Part shown: in pieces, positions 43,201 to 51,303 of the stretch
Layout: every line of letters starts with the position of its first letter
Position numbering within the stretch: position 1 is the first letter of the stretch
Source of the DNA: Thioclava sp. GXIMD2076
GTDB taxonomy: Bacteria > Pseudomonadota > Alphaproteobacteria > Rhodobacterales > Rhodobacteraceae
Length of the DNA: 64,000 bases
Direction of reading: 5' to 3'
Assembly (NCBI RefSeq): GCF_037949795.1
Contig: NZ_CP149932.1
Span: 434,001 to 498,000, forward strand
Translations under genes and position numbers: made by a program
The notes under the pieces: generated by a model
Databases searched by the model: none
What the model was told of the DNA's origin: nothing
What the model saw: the letters and a program-made list of their open reading frames with translations, nothing else

Positions 43201-44643
43201 TCAGGCCGCTTTCAGTTGCAGCTCGCAAGGCGCGATAAACTCGCCATGCAGCGCCGCAATCACCGGCTTCAGGCTCGGGCGCTCCAGCACAAACTGCACA
43301 TCCACATTGCGCGGACCCTGCGTCGCGCCCAGCGCTTCATGGCCTGCCGCCGCAATCGCCTGCAGCCCGCGTGTCAGCGTGGAGAGCCCGTTCAGATCGC
43401 GCCCGATGATCGAGGCCATCGCCAGAGGCCGCGCCGAGACCTTGGCCGAGGGGTAGATCCGGTTCAGGTCCTTCTCCACCTGCCGCGCCACTTTCAGCGA
43501 ACAATCGACATAATGGGTAATCGTATTGGCATTCGACGCCTTGGAGATGATACGCACATCATGGCGCGTCAGCACCTCGAGGATCGCGGCATCATAGCCC
43601 TTCACCCCCACCATATCCTGCTCGAACAACTCGAGGGCGAGGATATCTAGGCCAGTGATGATCTCGACCGCTGGAGTATCCGCCGGTTTGTCATCGATCA
43701 GCGTGCCCGGATCCTCCGGCTCGAAGGCGTTGGTCACGCGCAAAGGCACCTCGGCCTGACGCAGCGCCTTGGCCGCCTTGGGGTGGATCGCCTCCATCCC
43801 CATATTCGACAGCTGGTCCGCCACATCATAATTGGTATGGCCCAGCTTGCGCACGGCCTCCTGACCCACAAGGTTGGGATCCGCCGAGGACAGGTGGAAT
43901 TCCTTATGGATGATCGCCTCGCGCGCGCCGGTCAGAGCCGCCAAGCGCGAGAAGGTCACTTCGGAATAGCCACGGTCGAACTCGGCCATCAGCCCCTCGA
44001 CGCATTGGGCATAGCCCGTGACGATCGGCATCTCGGAGGTCAGATCCACGCCCGCGAGCCCCGCCTTCAGGCGGTCCTCGAGATCGTATTCCGCCTCTTC
44101 ACGCCAGCCCGACAGGTCCACGAAGCGCGCGTTCACGCCCGCGCGTTGCAACATCAGCGCGGTGACATAGGCCGAATGTGCCTCGCCCAGCCCCGACAGC
44201 ATCTCGCGCATGGCCAGCATATGGTCCGACAGACGGAAATGCCCGTAGGAGCACAGTCTTCCGAGATCGATCAGGCAGTTGCGCGCACCATCGATCCGGT
44301 CACGCACGAAACTGTCAGCCGCGCCCAGATCGGCGGGATGGTCGAGCACCTTGCGATGCGCCTCTCCCATGGCCTGCGCCACGCTATCCAGCGCTTCCAG
44401 CCAGCCGTGATCGTTATCGGCATCGGCGAAACGGGCATAGACCCCGCGCTCGCCGGTCTTCTTGTGCTCAAGAAGCAGGTTGGTGATGCCGCCGAAGGCC
44501 GAGACCACGAAGACGCGCCCGTAAATGTCTGCGCCCTCGCGTGTGCCGATGAACAACGTGTCGCGCAGTTCGCGCACACGGCTCATCGACGTGCCACCGA
44601 TCTTCTCGACGGTATGAGCGGGATATTGCGGTGCACTGGCCAT
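43201..44643 (-). CDS. ask: Ectoine-operon aspartate kinase (Ask_Ect)
   Basis: A 480-residue aspartokinase that makes aspartyl phosphate for L-aspartate semialdehyde, the precursor of diaminobutyrate. The kinase start VEKIGGTSMSRV is the phosphate-binding motif; two ACT domains sit at the C-terminus (about 330-480). Ask_Ect enzymes are known to escape the lysine/threonine feedback of house-keeping aspartokinases, so the operon can draw carbon into ectoine. It follows ectC by 6 bp and ends in a terminator. Confidence 0.94.
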   Translation of the reverse strand: MASAPQYPAHTVEKIGGTSMSRVRELRDTLFIGTREGADIYGRVFVVSAFGGITNLLLEHKKTGERGVYARFADADNDHGWLEALDSVAQAMGEAHRKVLDHPADLGAADSFVRDRIDGARNCLIDLGRLCSYGHFRLSDHMLAMREMLSGLGEAHSAYVTALMLQRAGVNARFVDLSGWREEAEYDLEDRLKAGLAGVDLTSEMPIVTGYAQCVEGLMAEFDRGYSEVTFSRLAALTGAREAIIHKEFHLSSADPNLVGQEAVRKLGHTNYDVADQLSNMGMEAIHPKAAKALRQAEVPLRVTNAFEPEDPGTLIDDKPADTPAVEIITGLDILALELFEQDMVGVKGYDAAILEVLTRHDVRIISKASNANTITHYVDCSLKVARQVEKDLNRIYPSAKVSARPLAMASIIGRDLNGLSTLTRGLQAIAAAGHEALGATQGPRNVDVQFVLERPSLKPVIAALHGEFIAPCELQLKAA

Positions 44644-44649
44644 GATGGC

Positions 44650-45057
44650 TTACGCTTTCTCCATTTCGTCGGCCGGCGCATAGGAGCCGTCCTCACGATG
44701 GACTTCCTTGCCGGTCACCGGCGGATTGAAACAGCAGGCCATGACCAGATCCGCACCTTCATCGGCGATCAGGCGGTGACGGTCATGGAGGTTGAGCGCA
44801 TACATCACGCCCGGCTTGATCTCGTGAGTCTTGTTGCCGTTATCCAGCTCGATGATGCGCCCCGTGCCGGACATGCAATAAACGCTCTCGAAATGGTGCT
44901 TATAGTGGAACTCGTGTTCCGAGCCTGCTTCCAGCGTGGTGATATGGAACGAGAAGTTCATATTGTCATCGGCCAGCAGCATGCGGACCGAGGTCCAGCG
45001 CTCGTTGCCTACGTTCTTGTCGGTGTGCTTCAGTTCGTTGAAATCGCGTACAATCAT
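44650..45057 (-). CDS. ectC: L-ectoine synthase
   Basis: A 135-residue cupin that closes N-gamma-acetyl-diaminobutyrate into ectoine with loss of water. It has the EctC pattern MIVRDFNEL ... EFHYKHHFESVYCMSGTG ... YALNLHDRHRL; Glu57 and the later Tyr/His cluster (Tyr86, His91, His94) lie in the metal and substrate pocket known for the family. Normal length. It lies 64 bp after ectB and 6 bp before ask. No ectD gene (5-hydroxylase) is present. Confidence 0.97.
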   Translation of the reverse strand: MIVRDFNELKHTDKNVGNERWTSVRMLLADDNMNFSFHITTLEAGSEHEFHYKHHFESVYCMSGTGRIIELDNGNKTHEIKPGVMYALNLHDRHRLIADEGADLVMACCFNPPVTGKEVHREDGSYAPADEMEKA

Positions 45058-45121: not shown

Positions 45122-46405
45122 TTATTGGCCAGCGGCCTCGGATGCTTTCACTTCACGGGCCGACTGGATCAGGATGTCCAGACCTTCGCGGAAAATCGCA
45201 TCCGGTGTGGTCAGCGGTGCCAGCACCTTGACTACCTGATCCTCGTTGCCCGAGGTCTCGATCACGAGGCCCTTCCCGAAGCAGAGGCCGCAGATCTCGG
45301 AGGCGCGTTCGCCGGTTCCGACATCCACACCCTGCATCAGGCCACGGCCCTTCAGGAAGGCACCGTCGAACATCTCGGCAACTTCGGACAGCGCGGTGGT
45401 CAGCACCACGGCCTTATCGGCCAGCTGGCGCTGGAAGGCGTTATCGGCCCAGAACTTCTCGATCGCGGTTTTCGCGGTCAGGAAGGCATGGGTATTGCCG
45501 CGGAAGGTGCCGTTGTGCTCGGCAGGGCCCATCACGTCATGCTCGGGACGCACCAGAACCAGCGCCATCGGCAAGCCCATGCCCGAGACCGATTTCGCCA
45601 TGGTGACAATATCGGGGGTCACGCCCATCTCCTCGAAGGAGAAGAAAGTGCCGGTGCGGCCACAGCCTGCCTGAATATCATCAACAATAAACAGCGCGCC
45701 ATGTTTGCGGGCCACGGCCTCGACGCCGCGCACGAACTCCGGCGATGCGGCATTCAGACCGCCCTCGCCCTGCACGGTTTCCATCATGATCGCGGCAGGC
45801 GCATCCACCCCACCCGAGGCATCCGACAGCATCTGGTCAAGAAGCGCCACCGAATCCACGCCATCGGCATAGTTATCGAATGGCATACGCGTCACGCCTT
45901 GCGGCATCATGCCGGCACCGCCGCGGTGGTAGCCATTGCCGGTCGCGGCCAGCGCGCCCATGGTCACGCCGTGGAAGCCATTGGTGAAGGCGATGATATT
46001 CTGGCGGCCCGTCGATTTGCGCGCGATCTTCATTGCGGCTTCAACGGCATTGGCGCCGGTTGGGCCGATGAACATCAGCTTGTGGTCCATATCGCGCGCA
46101 CGCAGGATCAGATCCTGGAACACCTCGAGGAATGCGCCCTTGGTATCGGTATGGAAATCGAGTGCATGGCCCAGCTTGTCACCCGTCAGGTGATCGACCA
46201 GCGCCTGTTTCATATCGGGGTCGTTATGGCCGTAATTCAGCGAGGAACAGCCTGCCAGAAAATCGATGTAGCGCTTGCCATCGGCATCGAACAGCTCCGA
46301 GCCACGGGCATGGGTAAATACGGTATCGAAACCACGGCAATAGGAGCGGGCGTCAGATTCGCGTTGGGTAAAGATCGACCGATCGTTTGTTTTATCAAAC
46401 GGCAT
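45122..46405 (-). CDS. ectB: Diaminobutyrate-2-oxoglutarate transaminase
   Basis: A 427-residue PLP-dependent class III aminotransferase that converts aspartate semialdehyde to L-2,4-diaminobutyrate. PLP-binding residues include Asp242-Asp243 and Gln245 in FIVDDIQAGCG and the Schiff-base lysine in MAKSVSG (Lys271). Length and GCSSLNYGHNDPDMK near residue 52 match EctB. It is the second gene of the operon, with 51 bp after ectA. Because the reaction is reversible, it could also consume diaminobutyrate. Confidence 0.97.
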   Translation of the reverse strand: MPFDKTNDRSIFTQRESDARSYCRGFDTVFTHARGSELFDADGKRYIDFLAGCSSLNYGHNDPDMKQALVDHLTGDKLGHALDFHTDTKGAFLEVFQDLILRARDMDHKLMFIGPTGANAVEAAMKIARKSTGRQNIIAFTNGFHGVTMGALAATGNGYHRGGAGMMPQGVTRMPFDNYADGVDSVALLDQMLSDASGGVDAPAAIMMETVQGEGGLNAASPEFVRGVEAVARKHGALFIVDDIQAGCGRTGTFFSFEEMGVTPDIVTMAKSVSGMGLPMALVLVRPEHDVMGPAEHNGTFRGNTHAFLTAKTAIEKFWADNAFQRQLADKAVVLTTALSEVAEMFDGAFLKGRGLMQGVDVGTGERASEICGLCFGKGLVIETSGNEDQVVKVLAPLTTPDAIFREGLDILIQSAREVKASEAAGQ

Positions 46406-46456: not shown

Positions 46457-46984
46457 TTAGGCCGCCACTTTTGCCTCTTCCTCGAAAGTAATGGTGACCA
46501 TATGCTCGGTGGCCGCATGGCCGTCGAAATGATCGTCTTCAGTGAAATGTGCCTTGGAGGTCAGCTCGCCGCCAGCCGAGCGGGCGAAGGACCTGAACAG
46601 GCCCCATGAGGCCTCGTTCGATTTGGTGATCGTCGTTTGCAGGCGTGTGCACTGCGCCGCTTCGGGACGGTCGAGCAGATGGGACAGCATACGCTTGCCC
46701 AGCCCCAGACCACGCGCTTCGGGCGCCACAGCAACCTGCCAGACGAAGAATGTATCGGGTGCCGAAGGGGTGATGTAGCCCGAGACCCAGCCCATAGGCG
46801 CGCCGTCTTTCTCGACCAGCACGCAGGTGTCGCGGAAATGGTCGCATTGCAGCAAGTTGCAATACATCGAATTCTCGTCGAGCGGCTTGCAGCGCGAGAT
46901 AAGCGACCAGATTTCTGATCCGTCCTCGGCGGACGGCTTCCGGAATGTAAGCTTGGGCTGTTTCATGACTTCGACTGTCGGCAC
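46457..46984 (-). CDS. ectA: L-2,4-diaminobutyrate acetyltransferase
   Basis: A 175-residue GNAT-family enzyme that acetylates diaminobutyrate at the gamma-amino group. The acetyl-CoA motif is VAPEARGLGLGKRML and the LQTTITKSNEASWGLF helix follows, as in EctA. The GTG start at 46984 has GAGGAAA in front; a downstream ATG has no Shine-Dalgarno. It heads ectA-ectB-ectC-ask, and its upstream DNA holds a striking dyad shared with the divergent regulator. Confidence 0.96.
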   Translation of the reverse strand: MPTVEVMKQPKLTFRKPSAEDGSEIWSLISRCKPLDENSMYCNLLQCDHFRDTCVLVEKDGAPMGWVSGYITPSAPDTFFVWQVAVAPEARGLGLGKRMLSHLLDRPEAAQCTRLQTTITKSNEASWGLFRSFARSAGGELTSKAHFTEDDHFDGHAATEHMVTITFEEEAKVAA

Positions 46985-47001
46985 GATTTCATTTCCTCAG
47001 T

Positions 47002-47033
47002 TGCTTCGCTAATCTAATTAGATCATCGAAGCA
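47002..47033. promoter_or_regulatory. 32-bp near-perfect dyad, candidate EctR operator
   Basis: Outer arms TGCTTCG (47002-47008) and CGAAGCA (47027-47033) flank a perfect 12-bp core ATCTAATTAGAT (47012-47023); only two base pairs of the 32-bp dyad fail. It starts 18 bp before the ectA GTG. MarR proteins bind such dyads, and the EctR-like regulator gene begins 128 bp away, so this is the best candidate for its operator. Confidence 0.72.
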
Positions 47034-47052
47034 TAAATTTCAATATTCAAAG

Positions 47053-47080
47053 TAATTTTCTTTTCCAACATTGAAAATTA
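47053..47080. promoter_or_regulatory. Second inverted repeat in the ectA/ectR intergenic region
   Basis: TAATTTTC (47053-47060) and GAAAATTA (47073-47080) form an 8-bp inverted repeat with a 12-nt spacer, centred 49 bp from the larger dyad. It lies between the two divergent promoters and could be a second binding site. As AT-rich DNA it may also arise by chance. Confidence 0.4.
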
Positions 47081-47160
47081 GAGCGATAATTTGCTAATAA
47101 CCCTTATGTACCCTAAGTGAAATGGGGATAAAATCTTAGCTCAACTAAAGGAGATCGTAA

Positions 47161-47709
47161 TTGCCTGCCGCCTCCAGCTCTGCAATATTAAGCCATTCGA
47201 AGCTTCTAACCAGTTATGGAGACGGTATGAGCAGCGACCGTACCGATATGAGTCTTATTGCCCTGCGCCGTATCCTGCGCGCGACCGAACTGTTTGGCCG
47301 GGATCTGGCCAAATCTGCCGGGCTGACGCCCGTGCAATTCCGCGTGCTGCAAGTCGTGGCGGAAAAGGGCTGGTCGACCGCCAAGACCATCTCGATGCGC
47401 ATGGGGGTCAGTCAGGCCACCATCACCTCGCTCGTCGACAAGCTGGTCGACAAGGGAATGGTCAAACGCCAGCGTTCGGAAATCGACCGCCGCCAGACCG
47501 ATATCGTCATCACCGAGGCCGGTCATCATGCGCTCGACGAGGCCCCCGACGCCCTGCAGCAGCGCTTCGTGAAGAAATTCGAGGGTCTGCAGGACTGGGA
47601 ACAGGCACAGCTCGTAGCCTCGCTGGAACGGGTCGCCGCGATGCTCGATGCCAATGCGATGGATGCCTCTCCGGTGCTGCATTCGGGCGATATAATGCCG
47701 CGACAATAA
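47161..47709 (+). CDS. MarR-family regulator, EctR-like
   Basis: A MarR-family winged-helix protein. The DNA-binding part is KTISMRMGVSQATITSLVDKLVDKGMVKR, followed by the wing SEIDRRQTDIVIT. It is divergent from ectA, as EctR (Methylophaga, Methylomicrobium) and CosR are, and probably represses ectABC-ask at low salt. Two starts are possible: TTG at 47161 with AAAGGAG 7 nt upstream (182 residues), or ATG at 47227 with GGAG 5 nt upstream (160 residues). The former has the stronger site. The ectoine hydrolase gene follows on the same strand after 104 bp. Confidence 0.85.
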   Translation: MPAASSSAILSHSKLLTSYGDGMSSDRTDMSLIALRRILRATELFGRDLAKSAGLTPVQFRVLQVVAEKGWSTAKTISMRMGVSQATITSLVDKLVDKGMVKRQRSEIDRRQTDIVITEAGHHALDEAPDALQQRFVKKFEGLQDWEQAQLVASLERVAAMLDANAMDASPVLHSGDIMPRQ

Positions 47710-47813
47710 GCCGTTAGAAGAGGCTTGCAGATTTCCGTTTGACGCCCGCTTCCATGCGGTGTCCCATGGGACCATCGCCCGAGTGACGCGTTGCTGGTTC
47801 AGACGGAGATCCC

Positions 47814-48998
47814 ATGCCCATCGAGAATGCCCCCTTCAGCCTGCCCGAATATCAACGCCGGATCGCGCTGGTGCGCCAATCCATGGCCGAGCGCGGGCTG
47901 GATGTGCTGTTTGTCACCAACCCTTCCAACCAGTTCTGGCTGACAGGTTATGACGGCTGGTCCTTCTACACCCATCAGGGCGTGATCCTGACAATGGAAG
48001 GCGACCCGATCTGGTGGGGCCGGATGATGGATGCCAATGGTGCCAAGCGCACCGTGTGGATGAGTGACGACCAGATCCGCTGGTATGCCGACCGCATGGT
48101 TCAATCCGACACCGTGCATCCGATGGAAGATCTCGCCTCCCATCTGCGTATCCTTGGCCATGGTCAGGCGCGAATCGGGGTGGAGATGGAGACTTATTTC
48201 TACACCGCCCGCGCCCATGCCGTGCTGGCCGAGGGGCTGCCCGAGGCCACGCTGGTGGATGCCTCGGTGCTGGTGAACTGGCAGCGGCTGATCAAATCCG
48301 ACGAGGAGCTGCGCTTCATGCGCCGTGCCGCGCGGATCTCGGAACTGGTGATCACCCGCGCGGTCGAGCTGATCGAGCCGGGCTATCACAAGCATGATCT
48401 GGTGGGCGAGCTGTACAAGACCGCCGTGCAGGGCGAGGATGACAGCTGGGGCGATTATCCCGCCATCGTGCCGATGCTGCCATCCGGCGCGGATGCCTCG
48501 GCCCCGCATCTGACATGGAATGGCGAGGCGTTCCAGAAAGACCAGATGACCTTTGTCGAGCAATCGGGTTGCTACCGGCGTTATCATGCGCCGCTCTGCC
48601 GCTCGGTTTACCTGGGCAAGCCGCCGCAACATATGCTGGATGCCGCCGAGGCGCTGACCGCGGGGCTGAATGCCGGCATCGAGGTCGCCCGCCCCGGCAA
48701 CCGTGCCTGCGACATCGCCCGCGCCCTCGATACCGAATTGCTGAAAGTGGGCATCGAGCGCCCTGCCCGCTGCGGCTATGCGGTGGGCTGCTCCTACCCG
48801 CCGGATTGGGGCGAGCATACCGTCTCGCTGCGCGCGATGGACGAGACCGTGCTGCAACCGGGGATGACCTTCCACTTCATGCCGGGGCTCTGGATGGACG
48901 ATTGGGGGATGGAAACCACTGAAACCATCCTCATCCGCGAGGATGGCCCCGCCGAGCCTTTGTGCAATATCGAGCGCAAGCTCTTCGTGAAGGACTGA
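47814..48998 (+). CDS. doeA: Ectoine hydrolase (DoeA/EutD type, M24 fold)
   Basis: A 394-residue protein with the creatinase/prolidase fold of ectoine hydrolase. The N-terminal half has FVTNPSNQFWLTGYDGWSFYTHQGV; the C-terminal half has FVEQSGCYRRYHAPLCRSVYLG, where Glu249 stands where normal M24 enzymes have metal ligands. From family knowledge EutD acts through a glutamate in this motif rather than metals; I infer Glu249 is that residue. The enzyme opens ectoine to N-acetyl-diaminobutyrate. GGAG precedes the ATG. The next gene, 2 bp on, encodes a deacetylase. Confidence 0.88.
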   Translation: MPIENAPFSLPEYQRRIALVRQSMAERGLDVLFVTNPSNQFWLTGYDGWSFYTHQGVILTMEGDPIWWGRMMDANGAKRTVWMSDDQIRWYADRMVQSDTVHPMEDLASHLRILGHGQARIGVEMETYFYTARAHAVLAEGLPEATLVDASVLVNWQRLIKSDEELRFMRRAARISELVITRAVELIEPGYHKHDLVGELYKTAVQGEDDSWGDYPAIVPMLPSGADASAPHLTWNGEAFQKDQMTFVEQSGCYRRYHAPLCRSVYLGKPPQHMLDAAEALTAGLNAGIEVARPGNRACDIARALDTELLKVGIERPARCGYAVGCSYPPDWGEHTVSLRAMDETVLQPGMTFHFMPGLWMDDWGMETTETILIREDGPAEPLCNIERKLFVKD

Positions 48999-49000
48999 TC

Positions 49001-50155
49001 ATGTCGGACCTCCAGCGTGCGAAGGCGATTCTGGGCGACCTGATCGGCTTTGCCAGCATCTCGTCGGAGAGCAATCTCGATATTATCGGCTATTGCGCCC
49101 GTCACTTGGAGGCGGCAGGCGCGCGGGTCGAGGTCTTGCGTGATCCGATGGGCAGGAAGGCCAATCTCTGGGCCACGTTGGGGCCGGAGGGCGATGGCGG
49201 GCTGGTGCTGTCGGGGCATTCCGATGTGGTGCCGGTGGCAAACCAGAACTGGAGCTCGGACCCGTTTGTGATGCGCGAGGAGGACGGCAAGCTCTTTGGC
49301 CGTGGCGCCTGCGACATGAAGGGCTTTATCGCCTGCTGTCTGGCCAAGGCCGAGGAGCTGGCGATGATAGCCCATCATCAGCCGATCCATTTCGCCTTCA
49401 CCCATGACGAGGAGATCGGTTGCTTCGGTGCCCGCGCCCTGACCGAGGTTCTGGCCCAGCGCGGGCTGCGGCCCCGCCTATGCGTGATCGGCGAACCCAC
49501 CGAGATGCAGGTAATCGAAGGCAACAAGGGCTGTTGTGAGTATAGCGTGACCTTCTCGGGGCTCGAGGGCCATAGCTCGGCCCCCGAGCGCGGGGTGAAT
49601 GCGGTGGAATATGCCGCGCGCTATATCGGGCGACTCCTCGACCTGCGCAGCGATCTGGTCGCCCGCGCGCCCGACGGATCGCGGTTCGACCCGCCCTGGA
49701 CCACGCTGAATGTCGGACGGCTCGAAGGGGGCGTCGCGCATAATGTGATTGCCAATCATGCAGTTCTCGATTGGGAATTCCGGCCCGTGAGCATGGAGGA
49801 TATGAGCTTCGTGAAAACGGAAGTTGCCGGCTATGTCGAAACCCTGCTGGGCGAGATGCGCCGGACGCATCCCAACGCCTCGATCACCACCGAAACCATC
49901 GGCGAGGTCGCGGGACTGGAACCGATGCCCGAGAATGCCGCGCGCGATCTGGTCTTCGGCCTGACAGGGCGTAACGAGGCGTCCTGTGTGCCCTTCTCGA
50001 CCGAGGCGGGGCTGTTTCAAGCGCTGGGCACCGATGTTGTGATCTGCGGGCCAGGATCCATTGCGCAAGCGCACAAGCCTGACGAATTTGTCAGCCTTGA
50101 CCAGATGCAAACCTGCCTGAGCATGTTCGATCGGCTGATATCCGACCGTTCATAG
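49001..50155 (+). CDS. ArgE-like M20 deacetylase, probable N-acetyl-diaminobutyrate deacetylase
   Basis: A 384-residue M20-family amidohydrolase. The zinc motif residues are visible: LSGHSDVVPV, GRGACDMKGFIACC, FTHDEEIGCFGARAL (catalytic Glu-Glu) and the C-terminal histidine in IAQAHKPDEFV. Length and motifs match acetylornithine deacetylase ArgE. AAGGA lies 6 nt before the ATG at 49001, 2 bp after the ectoine hydrolase gene. Position argues for deacetylation of N-acetyl-diaminobutyrate, in place of the usual AstE/AspA-type DoeB. Acetylornithine remains a possible substrate. Confidence 0.82.
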   Translation: MSDLQRAKAILGDLIGFASISSESNLDIIGYCARHLEAAGARVEVLRDPMGRKANLWATLGPEGDGGLVLSGHSDVVPVANQNWSSDPFVMREEDGKLFGRGACDMKGFIACCLAKAEELAMIAHHQPIHFAFTHDEEIGCFGARALTEVLAQRGLRPRLCVIGEPTEMQVIEGNKGCCEYSVTFSGLEGHSSAPERGVNAVEYAARYIGRLLDLRSDLVARAPDGSRFDPPWTTLNVGRLEGGVAHNVIANHAVLDWEFRPVSMEDMSFVKTEVAGYVETLLGEMRRTHPNASITTETIGEVAGLEPMPENAARDLVFGLTGRNEASCVPFSTEAGLFQALGTDVVICGPGSIAQAHKPDEFVSLDQMQTCLSMFDRLISDRS

Positions 50156-50256
50156 GCAGAAAACCGTTCATGGGGCAATATTTACGATAATTACGGAACT
50201 TGCGGAACCGGCGCGTTTTTCGTGTGTTATGGCGACAGAGACAAAGGAGTCGCATC

Positions 50257-50394
50257 ATGACCAAACTACTTATCCCCGCCTTTATTCTGGCCTCGCTTGG
50301 CGTATCCGCCTGCTCGACCGTGCATGGCTTCGGGCAGGACGTGACGACCGCAGGCCATGTGGTCCAGCGTGAATCCATCGAAGCCGCACAATAA
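50257..50394 (+). CDS. Entericidin-like small lipoprotein
   Basis: A 45-residue lipoprotein: MTKLLIPAFILASLGVSAC with a lipobox (Cys19), then STVHGFGQDVTTAGHVVQRESIEAAQ. The VHGFGQDVTTAG pattern is that of EcnA/EcnB entericidins, small stress-related membrane lipoproteins. AAAGGAG precedes the ATG at 50257, and a terminator follows 21 bp after the stop, so it is a single-gene unit. The role is unclear. Confidence 0.88.
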   Translation: MTKLLIPAFILASLGVSACSTVHGFGQDVTTAGHVVQRESIEAAQ

Positions 50395-50415
50395 GCGCAT
50401 CCTGACAAACTGCAG

Positions 50416-50448
50416 GCCCCCGCAGAGCTTTCAGCCGCGGGGGCTTTT
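50416..50448 (+). terminator. Rho-independent terminator after the entericidin gene
   Basis: Arms GCCCCCGC (50416-50423) and GCGGGGGC (50437-50444) form an 8-bp stem with a 13-nt loop followed by TTTT. Confidence 0.85.
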
Positions 50449-50481
50449 ACTTGCCGAACAAAGCCCTCGCCGAAAAAGGGC

Positions 50482-51303
50482 TTAACGCTTGGCTCCCCAA
50501 GAGACCGACGCATATTGGCGTGTATAGAATTCGCCCATCAGCCCGATCATCATAAGCGCCAGCCCGACATAGAGTGCGTAGTGCCAGCTCGAGAAATGCG
50601 GGTTGTAATTGATGAAGGTAAAGCCCCTCGCCTGATCGATCGTGTGAAAGAGCGGATTCCAGTTGAACAGGACCAGCATCTTATGCGGCAGGGTATTGGC
50701 CAGAAACATCTTGCCCGAGGCGATCATATTGGCGCGGGAATAGATCTGGTGGATGACCCGCACGACATCGGGAGCCCAGGGTTTTGCCGCCAGCAGGACC
50801 ATGCCGATGGCGGCGCCGGTGAACCAGCTCAGAAACACCATCCCCATCGCCCCTACCCAATCATAGATAGTGATCGGAGTGAAAGCGGCATGGTAGAGAT
50901 AAAGCACCACGATCATCGAGAGCAGCTGGATATAAAGCGCGCTCAGGGCCGCCGCCGAGATCGAGATCGCAGTCGTCATCGGTGCGTGCTTCATCATCGC
51001 CGAGGTCGGGCCCTCTGCCCCGAAGACCGCGCTCATCGCCTTGGTATGGGTCAGGAACAGGAAGATCCCGCTCATGATATACAGAAGGAAATCGCCCCGC
51101 ACCGCGCTGCCGCGCAGCCCCAGCACACCGAACATGATGTAGAAGGTGAAGACGAGGATCACCACCTGCAGCATATTGAGCAAAAGCCCGATGACCGCGT
51201 TTCCGTGGCTTTTGCGCAGCTCGCGGACGGTCGCGTGATAGATCAGCCCCAGAAGACTGAAGCCCGACCCGATCGTTGAATTACTCTGTTGCGCTTTGAA
51301 CAT
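50482..51303 (-). CDS. ABC-2 type polysaccharide export permease (KpsM/Wzm-like)
   Basis: A 273-residue inner-membrane protein with about six transmembrane helices (VVILVFTFYIMFGVLG, FLLYIMSGIFLFL, LLSMIVVLYLYH, MVFLSWFTGAAIGMVLL, near the C-terminus LYVGLALMMIGLMGEFY). The order and the NWNPLFHTIDQARGFTF stretch fit ABC-2 permeases that export capsule or O-antigen. The ATG at 51303 follows GCGGGAT. No matching ATPase gene is adjacent. It stands at the edge of a polysaccharide region, divergent from cysQ. Confidence 0.88.
   Translation of the reverse strand: MFKAQQSNSTIGSGFSLLGLIYHATVRELRKSHGNAVIGLLLNMLQVVILVFTFYIMFGVLGLRGSAVRGDFLLYIMSGIFLFLTHTKAMSAVFGAEGPTSAMMKHAPMTTAISISAAALSALYIQLLSMIVVLYLYHAAFTPITIYDWVGAMGMVFLSWFTGAAIGMVLLAAKPWAPDVVRVIHQIYSRANMIASGKMFLANTLPHKMLVLFNWNPLFHTIDQARGFTFINYNPHFSSWHYALYVGLALMMIGLMGEFYTRQYASVSWGAKR

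Follow-up and report, generated by a model that had tools for sequence, protein, structure and literature searches.

Why would a bacterium that makes ectoine keep, directly behind the regulator of its synthesis genes, two genes predicted to take ectoine apart? The question is raised by a locus of Thioclava sp. GXIMD2076 within the window analyzed here, a stretch of 64,000 nucleotides (contig NZ_CP149932.1, positions 434,001 to 498,000) from a genome of 4.15 Mb in five contigs (hereafter G000). On the plus strand of the window an ectR-like gene of the MarR family is followed by doeA (47814..48998), whose predicted product is an ectoine hydrolase of peptidase family M24, and by a gene for an M20 metallo-deacetylase annotated as acetylornithine deacetylase (49001..50155), the ATG of which lies 2 bases past the doeA stop; ectABC-ask occupies the minus strand. 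Open reading frames and profile searches confirmed this layout, which an earlier reading of the bare letters (the sequence-only reading) had described as a possible recycling loop. We propose, with a probability of roughly 80%, that the locus is a turnover module for a salt protectant in which the M20 protein would replace DoeB/EutE and diaminobutyrate would have two fates. EctB, EctA and EctC would make ectoine, DoeA would open its ring to give N-acetyl-diaminobutyrate, and the M20 protein would remove the acetyl group to yield diaminobutyrate and acetate; diaminobutyrate would then either flow back into synthesis through EctA or be converted to aspartate by DoeD and DoeC, whose genes lie at another G000 locus.

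Comparative evidence makes a strong case for the predicted function of the M20 protein. Among 292 sampled Rhodobacterales genomes, of which those listed all belong to one family code, we counted M20 orthologues at ≥52% identity, below which a gap extends down to 45%, and DoeB at E 1e-100 or better, excluding weaker aspartoacylase-like matches. By these measures doeA was present in 202 genomes, the M20 orthologue in 116 and DoeB in 73 (66 of them above the curated cut-off), and not one of the 292 carried both M20 and DoeB. doeA accompanied the M20 orthologue in 114/116 genomes and DoeB in 69/73, and within the doeA genomes the exclusion between the two deacetylases gave a Fisher p of 7e-37, uncorrected for kinship. 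In ten genera some species carry M20 and others DoeB, and a single deep split therefore does not account for the pattern. A distant M20 relative (40–43% identity) was found in 8 DoeB genomes. Association with doeA together with exclusion of DoeB is the signature of non-orthologous replacement, and on this comparison the M20 protein very probably takes the DoeB step. G000 itself had no match to the DoeB model TIGR02994 at E 0.001, and the earlier pairing of doeA with the M20 gene, with M20 most likely at the DoeB step, finds support here.

The association is also visible in gene order. We fetched 80 doeA loci, the best 80 of 102 passing patterns derived from the window DoeA, a set that is biased to close kin and includes some near-duplicates (e.g. 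L081 and L082). The gene directly after doeA was M20 in 49 loci, classical DoeB in 17 and neither in 14, at least four of which (L092, L105, L110, L114) had a DoeB-family gene nearby. Since ect genes stood beside doeA-M20 in only 5/80, the pairing is not peculiar to a biosynthetic operon. Viewed from the other gene, 76/117 M20 genes immediately followed doeA in the same orientation; another 14 could not be judged because doeA coordinates were available only for the best matches, one of them (in G015) lying at a contig end. Entire catabolic clusters are found at several M20-type loci, such as L042, where genes for EhuABCD, EutB, EutC, AsnC, DoeC and DoeD accompany an M20 gene in the DoeB position. 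In 20 neighborhoods of M20 genes not adjacent to doeA, three (L211, L215, L226) had asnC and/or doeD beside M20, and the rest were too varied for assignment.

Other settings of doeA were also seen. Acidimicrobiales/actinobacterial doeA-M20 pairs (L076–L080) are followed by a gene of the xsc family (sulfoacetaldehyde acetyltransferase) in 4/5 cases, L080 ending after M20. SAR116-type loci (L109, L111, L115) carry an agmatinase gene, doeA and a distant M20 (38–42%), then a gene of a drug/metabolite-type amino acid exporter family. In Thioclava marina/pacifica-type loci (L038, L155, L169) doeA diverges from a gene for a TIGR01891-branch amidohydrolase, which in L038 scores 180 bits, well below the cut-off of 550 for DoeB2.

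The protein sequences were examined for signs of function. The best match of the window DoeA in the PDB was the enzyme of Halomonas elongata (6TWK/6TWJ; E 1.1e-137 for 6TWK), with the aligned active-site motifs intact and H232, E249, H258 and E370 (window numbering) common to both; from the M24/creatinase family we take these four to be active-site residues. The sequence-only reading had reckoned with a complete doe/eut cluster elsewhere and a degenerate doeA here; there are indeed further doe genes at other sites, yet G000 has no second doeA and this one is undecayed, and the view of it as a decayed copy was rejected. Its ratio of nonsynonymous to synonymous substitution (dN/dS) relative to the nearest relative is 0.03, and that of M20 is 0.10, both indicating purifying selection. 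The predicted structure of the M20 protein (mean predicted local distance difference test score, pLDDT, 92.5) was closest to E. coli ArgE (8uw6, template modeling score 0.80), and its metal-site motifs are conserved in alignment. Placing the protein on a tree, as had been suggested, put 91 alphaproteobacterial doeA-type M20 proteins in one supported group, with doeA-adjacent and non-adjacent genes interleaved, and left E. coli ArgE and two paralogues from G000 outside; however, with long outgroup branches (5.84, very long, for E. coli ArgE) and deep forks that are not resolved, the exact place of ArgE is unsure. Three positions, E180, W258 and A205, show little or no variation across 96 proteins of the group and three distant doeA-linked ones (SAR116 and relatives), and differ in E. 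coli ArgE and both G000 paralogues, which offers a lead to residues that may set specificity. Because N-alpha-acetyl-diaminobutyrate is N-acetylornithine minus one methylene, the change of substrate would be small. From co-occurrence, exclusion and neighborhoods we propose that the M20 protein is an ArgE-type N-alpha-acetyl-diaminobutyrate deacetylase, very probably a stand-in for DoeB/EutE rather than an enzyme of arginine metabolism.

Several observations weigh against these assignments. The M20 protein exceeds the cut-off of the curated ArgE model TIGR01892 (376.7 bits vs 297.7). The full-length match of DoeA to TIGR02993 scores 529 bits, short of the 613 set as cut-off. As many as 27/117 M20 genes lie away from the listed doeA of their genome and could serve another role. 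Neither M20 nor DoeB was found in 19 of the 202 doeA genomes, implying another deacetylase there or an incomplete pathway. The exclusion statistic is uncorrected for kinship, the genus comparison aside, and the listed genomes share a single family code. Finally, a genome outside the 292 (G028) has both enzymes and is an exception to strict exclusion; its two modules (L266, L267) are doeA-M20-GntR and, elsewhere, eutB-eutC-doeA-DoeB-asnC-doeC-doeD, the DoeB scoring 583 bits, so that each doeA stands next to its own deacetylase partner. In the 19 genomes without either partner, ten doeA neighborhoods contained no DoeB or M20 match in a BLAST search against the reference set only, and a distant M20 relative (40–44%) occurs elsewhere in 5/19. 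Several of these neighborhoods (L268–L273, L243–L246) have doeA beside a DoeD-like aminotransferase gene (38–40%) and genes for ATP-binding cassette (ABC) transporter ATPases.

The annotation of the M20 protein as an arginine enzyme was weighed in the same way. It is also above the cut-off of PRK07522, which like TIGR01892 is named acetylornithine deacetylase, and its named homologues, among those listed, are so called. Three G000 proteins pass TIGR01892, namely M20 and two paralogues 36–37% identical to it, so this cut-off cannot separate them, and for PRK05111, where E. coli ArgE scores 711 bits, M20 reaches 262.9 bits against a cut-off of 460. The sequence-only reading had allowed that M20 might group with the sole ArgE of the genome beside arginine genes, and had proposed looking for a second ArgE. 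The two ArgE-like paralogues and ArgJ (C1:910376, 387.6 bits vs 298) led us to reject M20 as the only ArgE, and with them present the M20 gene should be dispensable for arginine synthesis; no arginine gene was recognized adjoining M20. DoeB2 (NF038260) was absent from the 25 best of 51 families matched by M20, the weakest of which scored 69 bits.

We then compared the locus across 16 genomes of the genus, G000 among them. A MarR gene diverges from ectABC-ask in 15/16, the contig of G005 being too short to tell, and doeA-M20 lies behind it in seven (G000, G002, G004, G008, G010, G011, G013), so the arrangement is not chance; this also answers the earlier proposal to look for the pair beside ectABC-ask in relatives. 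Seven other genomes carry the pair at another site, G015 has doeA only as fragments at the ends of contigs, and a genome search found no doeA match in G005. Members with the pair beside the ect genes are present on both genus branches of the M20 tree, which would fit genes that were neighbors in the ancestor and were separated once afterwards. L164 (G035:C10:308001-328000), from a different genus of this family, holds ectR-ectABC-ask, doeD, a DoeA-like gene (31%), eutCB, ehuADCB and doeA-M20-GntR, a single block that, by its predicted products, unites synthesis, import and breakdown.

The synthesis arm in the window comprises, all on the minus strand, ectA for diaminobutyrate acetyltransferase (46457..46966; TIGR02406, 178 bits vs cut-off 121), ectB for diaminobutyrate transaminase (45122..46405; TIGR02407, 566 vs 552), ectC for ectoine synthase (44650..45057; PF06339, 181 vs 27; NF009806, 176 vs 128) and ask for the aspartokinase of the operon (43201..44643; NF006614/PRK09181, 657 vs 536). 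All four exceed curated cut-offs and, with the divergent MarR gene, make up an ectABC-ask operon with its ectR. The latter (47227..47709, plus strand; PF01047) has an alternative, longer TTG start at 47161. Between ectA and ectR, an alignment of 19 loci revealed a conserved TTGAAA element and, at 47012..47023, a 12-bp perfect palindrome, ATCTAATTAGAT, which occurs only once in the window and is exact only in G000 and its nearest relative; it is a plausible candidate for an EctR operator over the inferred -10 of ectA. Known EctR operators are A/T-rich pseudo-palindromes (PMC5924519). The gap between ectR and doeA is 104 bp. Scanning 46900-50600 returned 2 promoter-like sites, none of them between ectR and doeA, vs 1.4 expected by shuffling, and 0 terminator-like sites vs 2.5 expected. 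Several genus loci share a TTGAC element upstream of doeA, which is no proof of a separate promoter. Tentatively, ectR-doeA-M20 may form one transcript opposing ectABC-ask, with EctR setting both arms reciprocally; we regard this as possible.

Regulators and importers bear on where the ectoine comes from. The sequence-only reading had found no catabolic regulator, importer or further doe gene in the window, and a homology search with reference proteins agrees: no match to DoeB, DoeC, DoeD, AsnC or EhuR covers ≥40% of the reference, and the EhuA reference matches only ABC ATPases at 27–33%. Genome-wide, no G000 protein exceeded the cut-off for EhuR (best 303 vs 480, among 15 MocR-type matches) or EhuA (best 316 vs 345), with importers of the tripartite ATP-independent periplasmic (TRAP) type, UehABC, outside the search. 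On these grounds it seems more likely that G000 turns over ectoine of its own making than that it scavenges the compound. Elsewhere, doeA is preceded by TGTRYACA boxes in 18 of 120 loci scanned (L040-L042, L044-L047, L050, L056, L060-L062, L161, L162, L164, L227, L228, L238), as a rule two boxes ~80–130 bp apart, and a GntR-FCD gene follows M20 or doeA in 17 of these 18, L162 being cut by a contig end. Because boxes and gene go together so often, ectoine breakdown likely has, in addition to EnuR, a second regulator in GntR-FCD. The Thioclava doeA-M20 loci that were fetched, the window included, have neither boxes nor the GntR-FCD gene; the boxes are retained at one G015 fragment (L162) and at the second doeA of G013 (L161; G013:C3:130001-150000), which stands with ehuBCDA, eutBC and a GntR-FCD gene and has no M20 gene behind it; the M20 gene of that genome sits at the ect locus.

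These data leave a modest chance that doeA-M20 serves mainly external ectoine and came to lie beside the ect genes by an accident of rearrangement. Relatives do carry the pair within EhuABCD/Eut clusters, EhuA is above its cut-off in 9/16 genus genomes, three of them with the pair beside the ect genes (G002, G011, G013), and G000 has asnC-doeC-doeD as well as, perhaps, a TRAP importer of the kind outside our search. Its best EhuA match, though, falls short of the cut-off, the window doeA lacks the boxes and its M20 the GntR-FCD gene paired with them in 17 other loci, and an accident accords poorly with ect-adjacent members on both genus branches of the M20 tree.

A turnover module with two outlets is also preferred over the view, taken in the sequence-only reading, that DoeA and M20 only return diaminobutyrate to EctA and so form a closed loop, a pure controller of the ectoine pool. 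That view draws on the pair adjoining ectABC-ask in 7/16 genus genomes and on the lack of EhuR and EhuA above cut-off in G000. However, asnC-doeC-doeD was found in G000 at C1:1170131-1173574, ~690 kb from doeA-M20 on the same contig, its AsnC-type regulator, aldehyde dehydrogenase and class III aminotransferase sharing 75, 76 and 82% identity with the equivalent proteins of L041, a complete catabolic cluster. DoeC and DoeD were assigned by this likeness; the aminotransferase scores 831 bits for PRK07482 (cut-off 687), a model itself named hypothetical protein. With these genes, diaminobutyrate could return via EctA or leave to aspartate. A DoeD-type aminotransferase above the PRK07482 cut-off is present in 15/16 genus genomes, and relatives hold doeA-M20 within clusters for import and catabolism, so a closed loop alone is unlikely for G000. 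It is possible in G004, which has the same ect-adjacent locus and no DoeD-type aminotransferase over that cut-off. Least credible is an ordinary acetylornithine deacetylase beside doeA by chance, which the two passed models, the names of homologues and the nearest solved structure favor but which the PRK05111 score, the presence of ArgJ, the undiscriminating TIGR01892 result, the doeA association and the exclusion of DoeB make very improbable.

Ectoine breakdown in a producer is not new. Halomonas elongata is a producer that also degrades ectoine (Schwibbert et al. 2011, PMC3187862), using DoeA, then a deacetylase, and DoeD with DoeC, and a cycle of synthesis and degradation as turnover control, with the same fork, has already been proposed for it (PMC3187862). 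The window shares with it a producer that also degrades, and the predicted route, but differs in its genes: H. elongata has doeABX and doeCD with an AstE/AspA-type DoeB, whereas here an ArgE-type M20 deacetylase and doeA lie beside ectR and ectABC-ask, with doeCD far off on the contig. Methylomicrobium alcaliphilum 20Z likewise combines an EctR (MarR)-controlled ectABC-ask with ectoine breakdown, and deletion of its doeA raises ectoine content; its doeBDAC, however, is a separate cluster, whereas in the window doeA and the deacetylase gene stand directly behind ectR (PMC7192451). Ruegeria pomeroyi-type eutD/eutE clusters, which come with EnuR and UehABC/EhuABCD, resemble G000 in the DoeA/EutD step and in homologues of AsnC, Ssd (DoeC) and Atf (DoeD), but differ in EutE, for which the TIGR02994 search detected no match in G000. 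The pathway itself is thus known; what is new is an ArgE-type deacetylase at its second step and the placement behind ectR.

Two other proteins, which we take to be of M20 type, invite comparison: DoeB2 and the product of abgB. DoeB2, an N2-acetyl-diaminobutanoate deacetylase, is likewise an amidohydrolase replacing an AstE-type DoeB, but its model is matched by an amidohydrolase of the TIGR01891 branch, whereas the window protein is of the ArgE/PRK07522 branch. Putative ectoine clusters of Bacillota lack eutE and contain abgB, a putative amidohydrolase gene; they belong to another phylum and another M20 branch, and the accessible text assigns no EutE step to abgB (PMC13188858). Published surveys list 363 eutD/eutE pairs (PMC8739950) and 575 EutD, mostly from cases in which EutE and EutB occurred as well (PMC13188858); built on eutE, they would miss ArgE-type clusters. 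In the accessible part of PMC5320631 ArgE appears in regulons for γ-aminobutyrate and not in ectoine regulons. Literature searches, which did not extend to subscription papers, returned nothing combining 'ectoine hydrolase' with 'acetylornithine deacetylase' or 'M20', and nothing for 'doeB2', although NCBIfam has a DoeB2 model of the other branch.

If the assignment is true, what databases call acetylornithine deacetylase would catalyze the second step of ectoine degradation in 114 of the 202 doeA-bearing Rhodobacterales genomes sampled, and surveys that require EutE would miss the bacteria of those 114 genomes. This locus is also a compact test bed for an open question posed in a 2018 review (PMC5924519): by what means do bacteria with both activities, synthesis and breakdown of ectoine, avoid squandering energy? 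Control of both arms by a single regulator, if true, would give such producers an inherent means of avoiding, or exploiting, a futile cycle.

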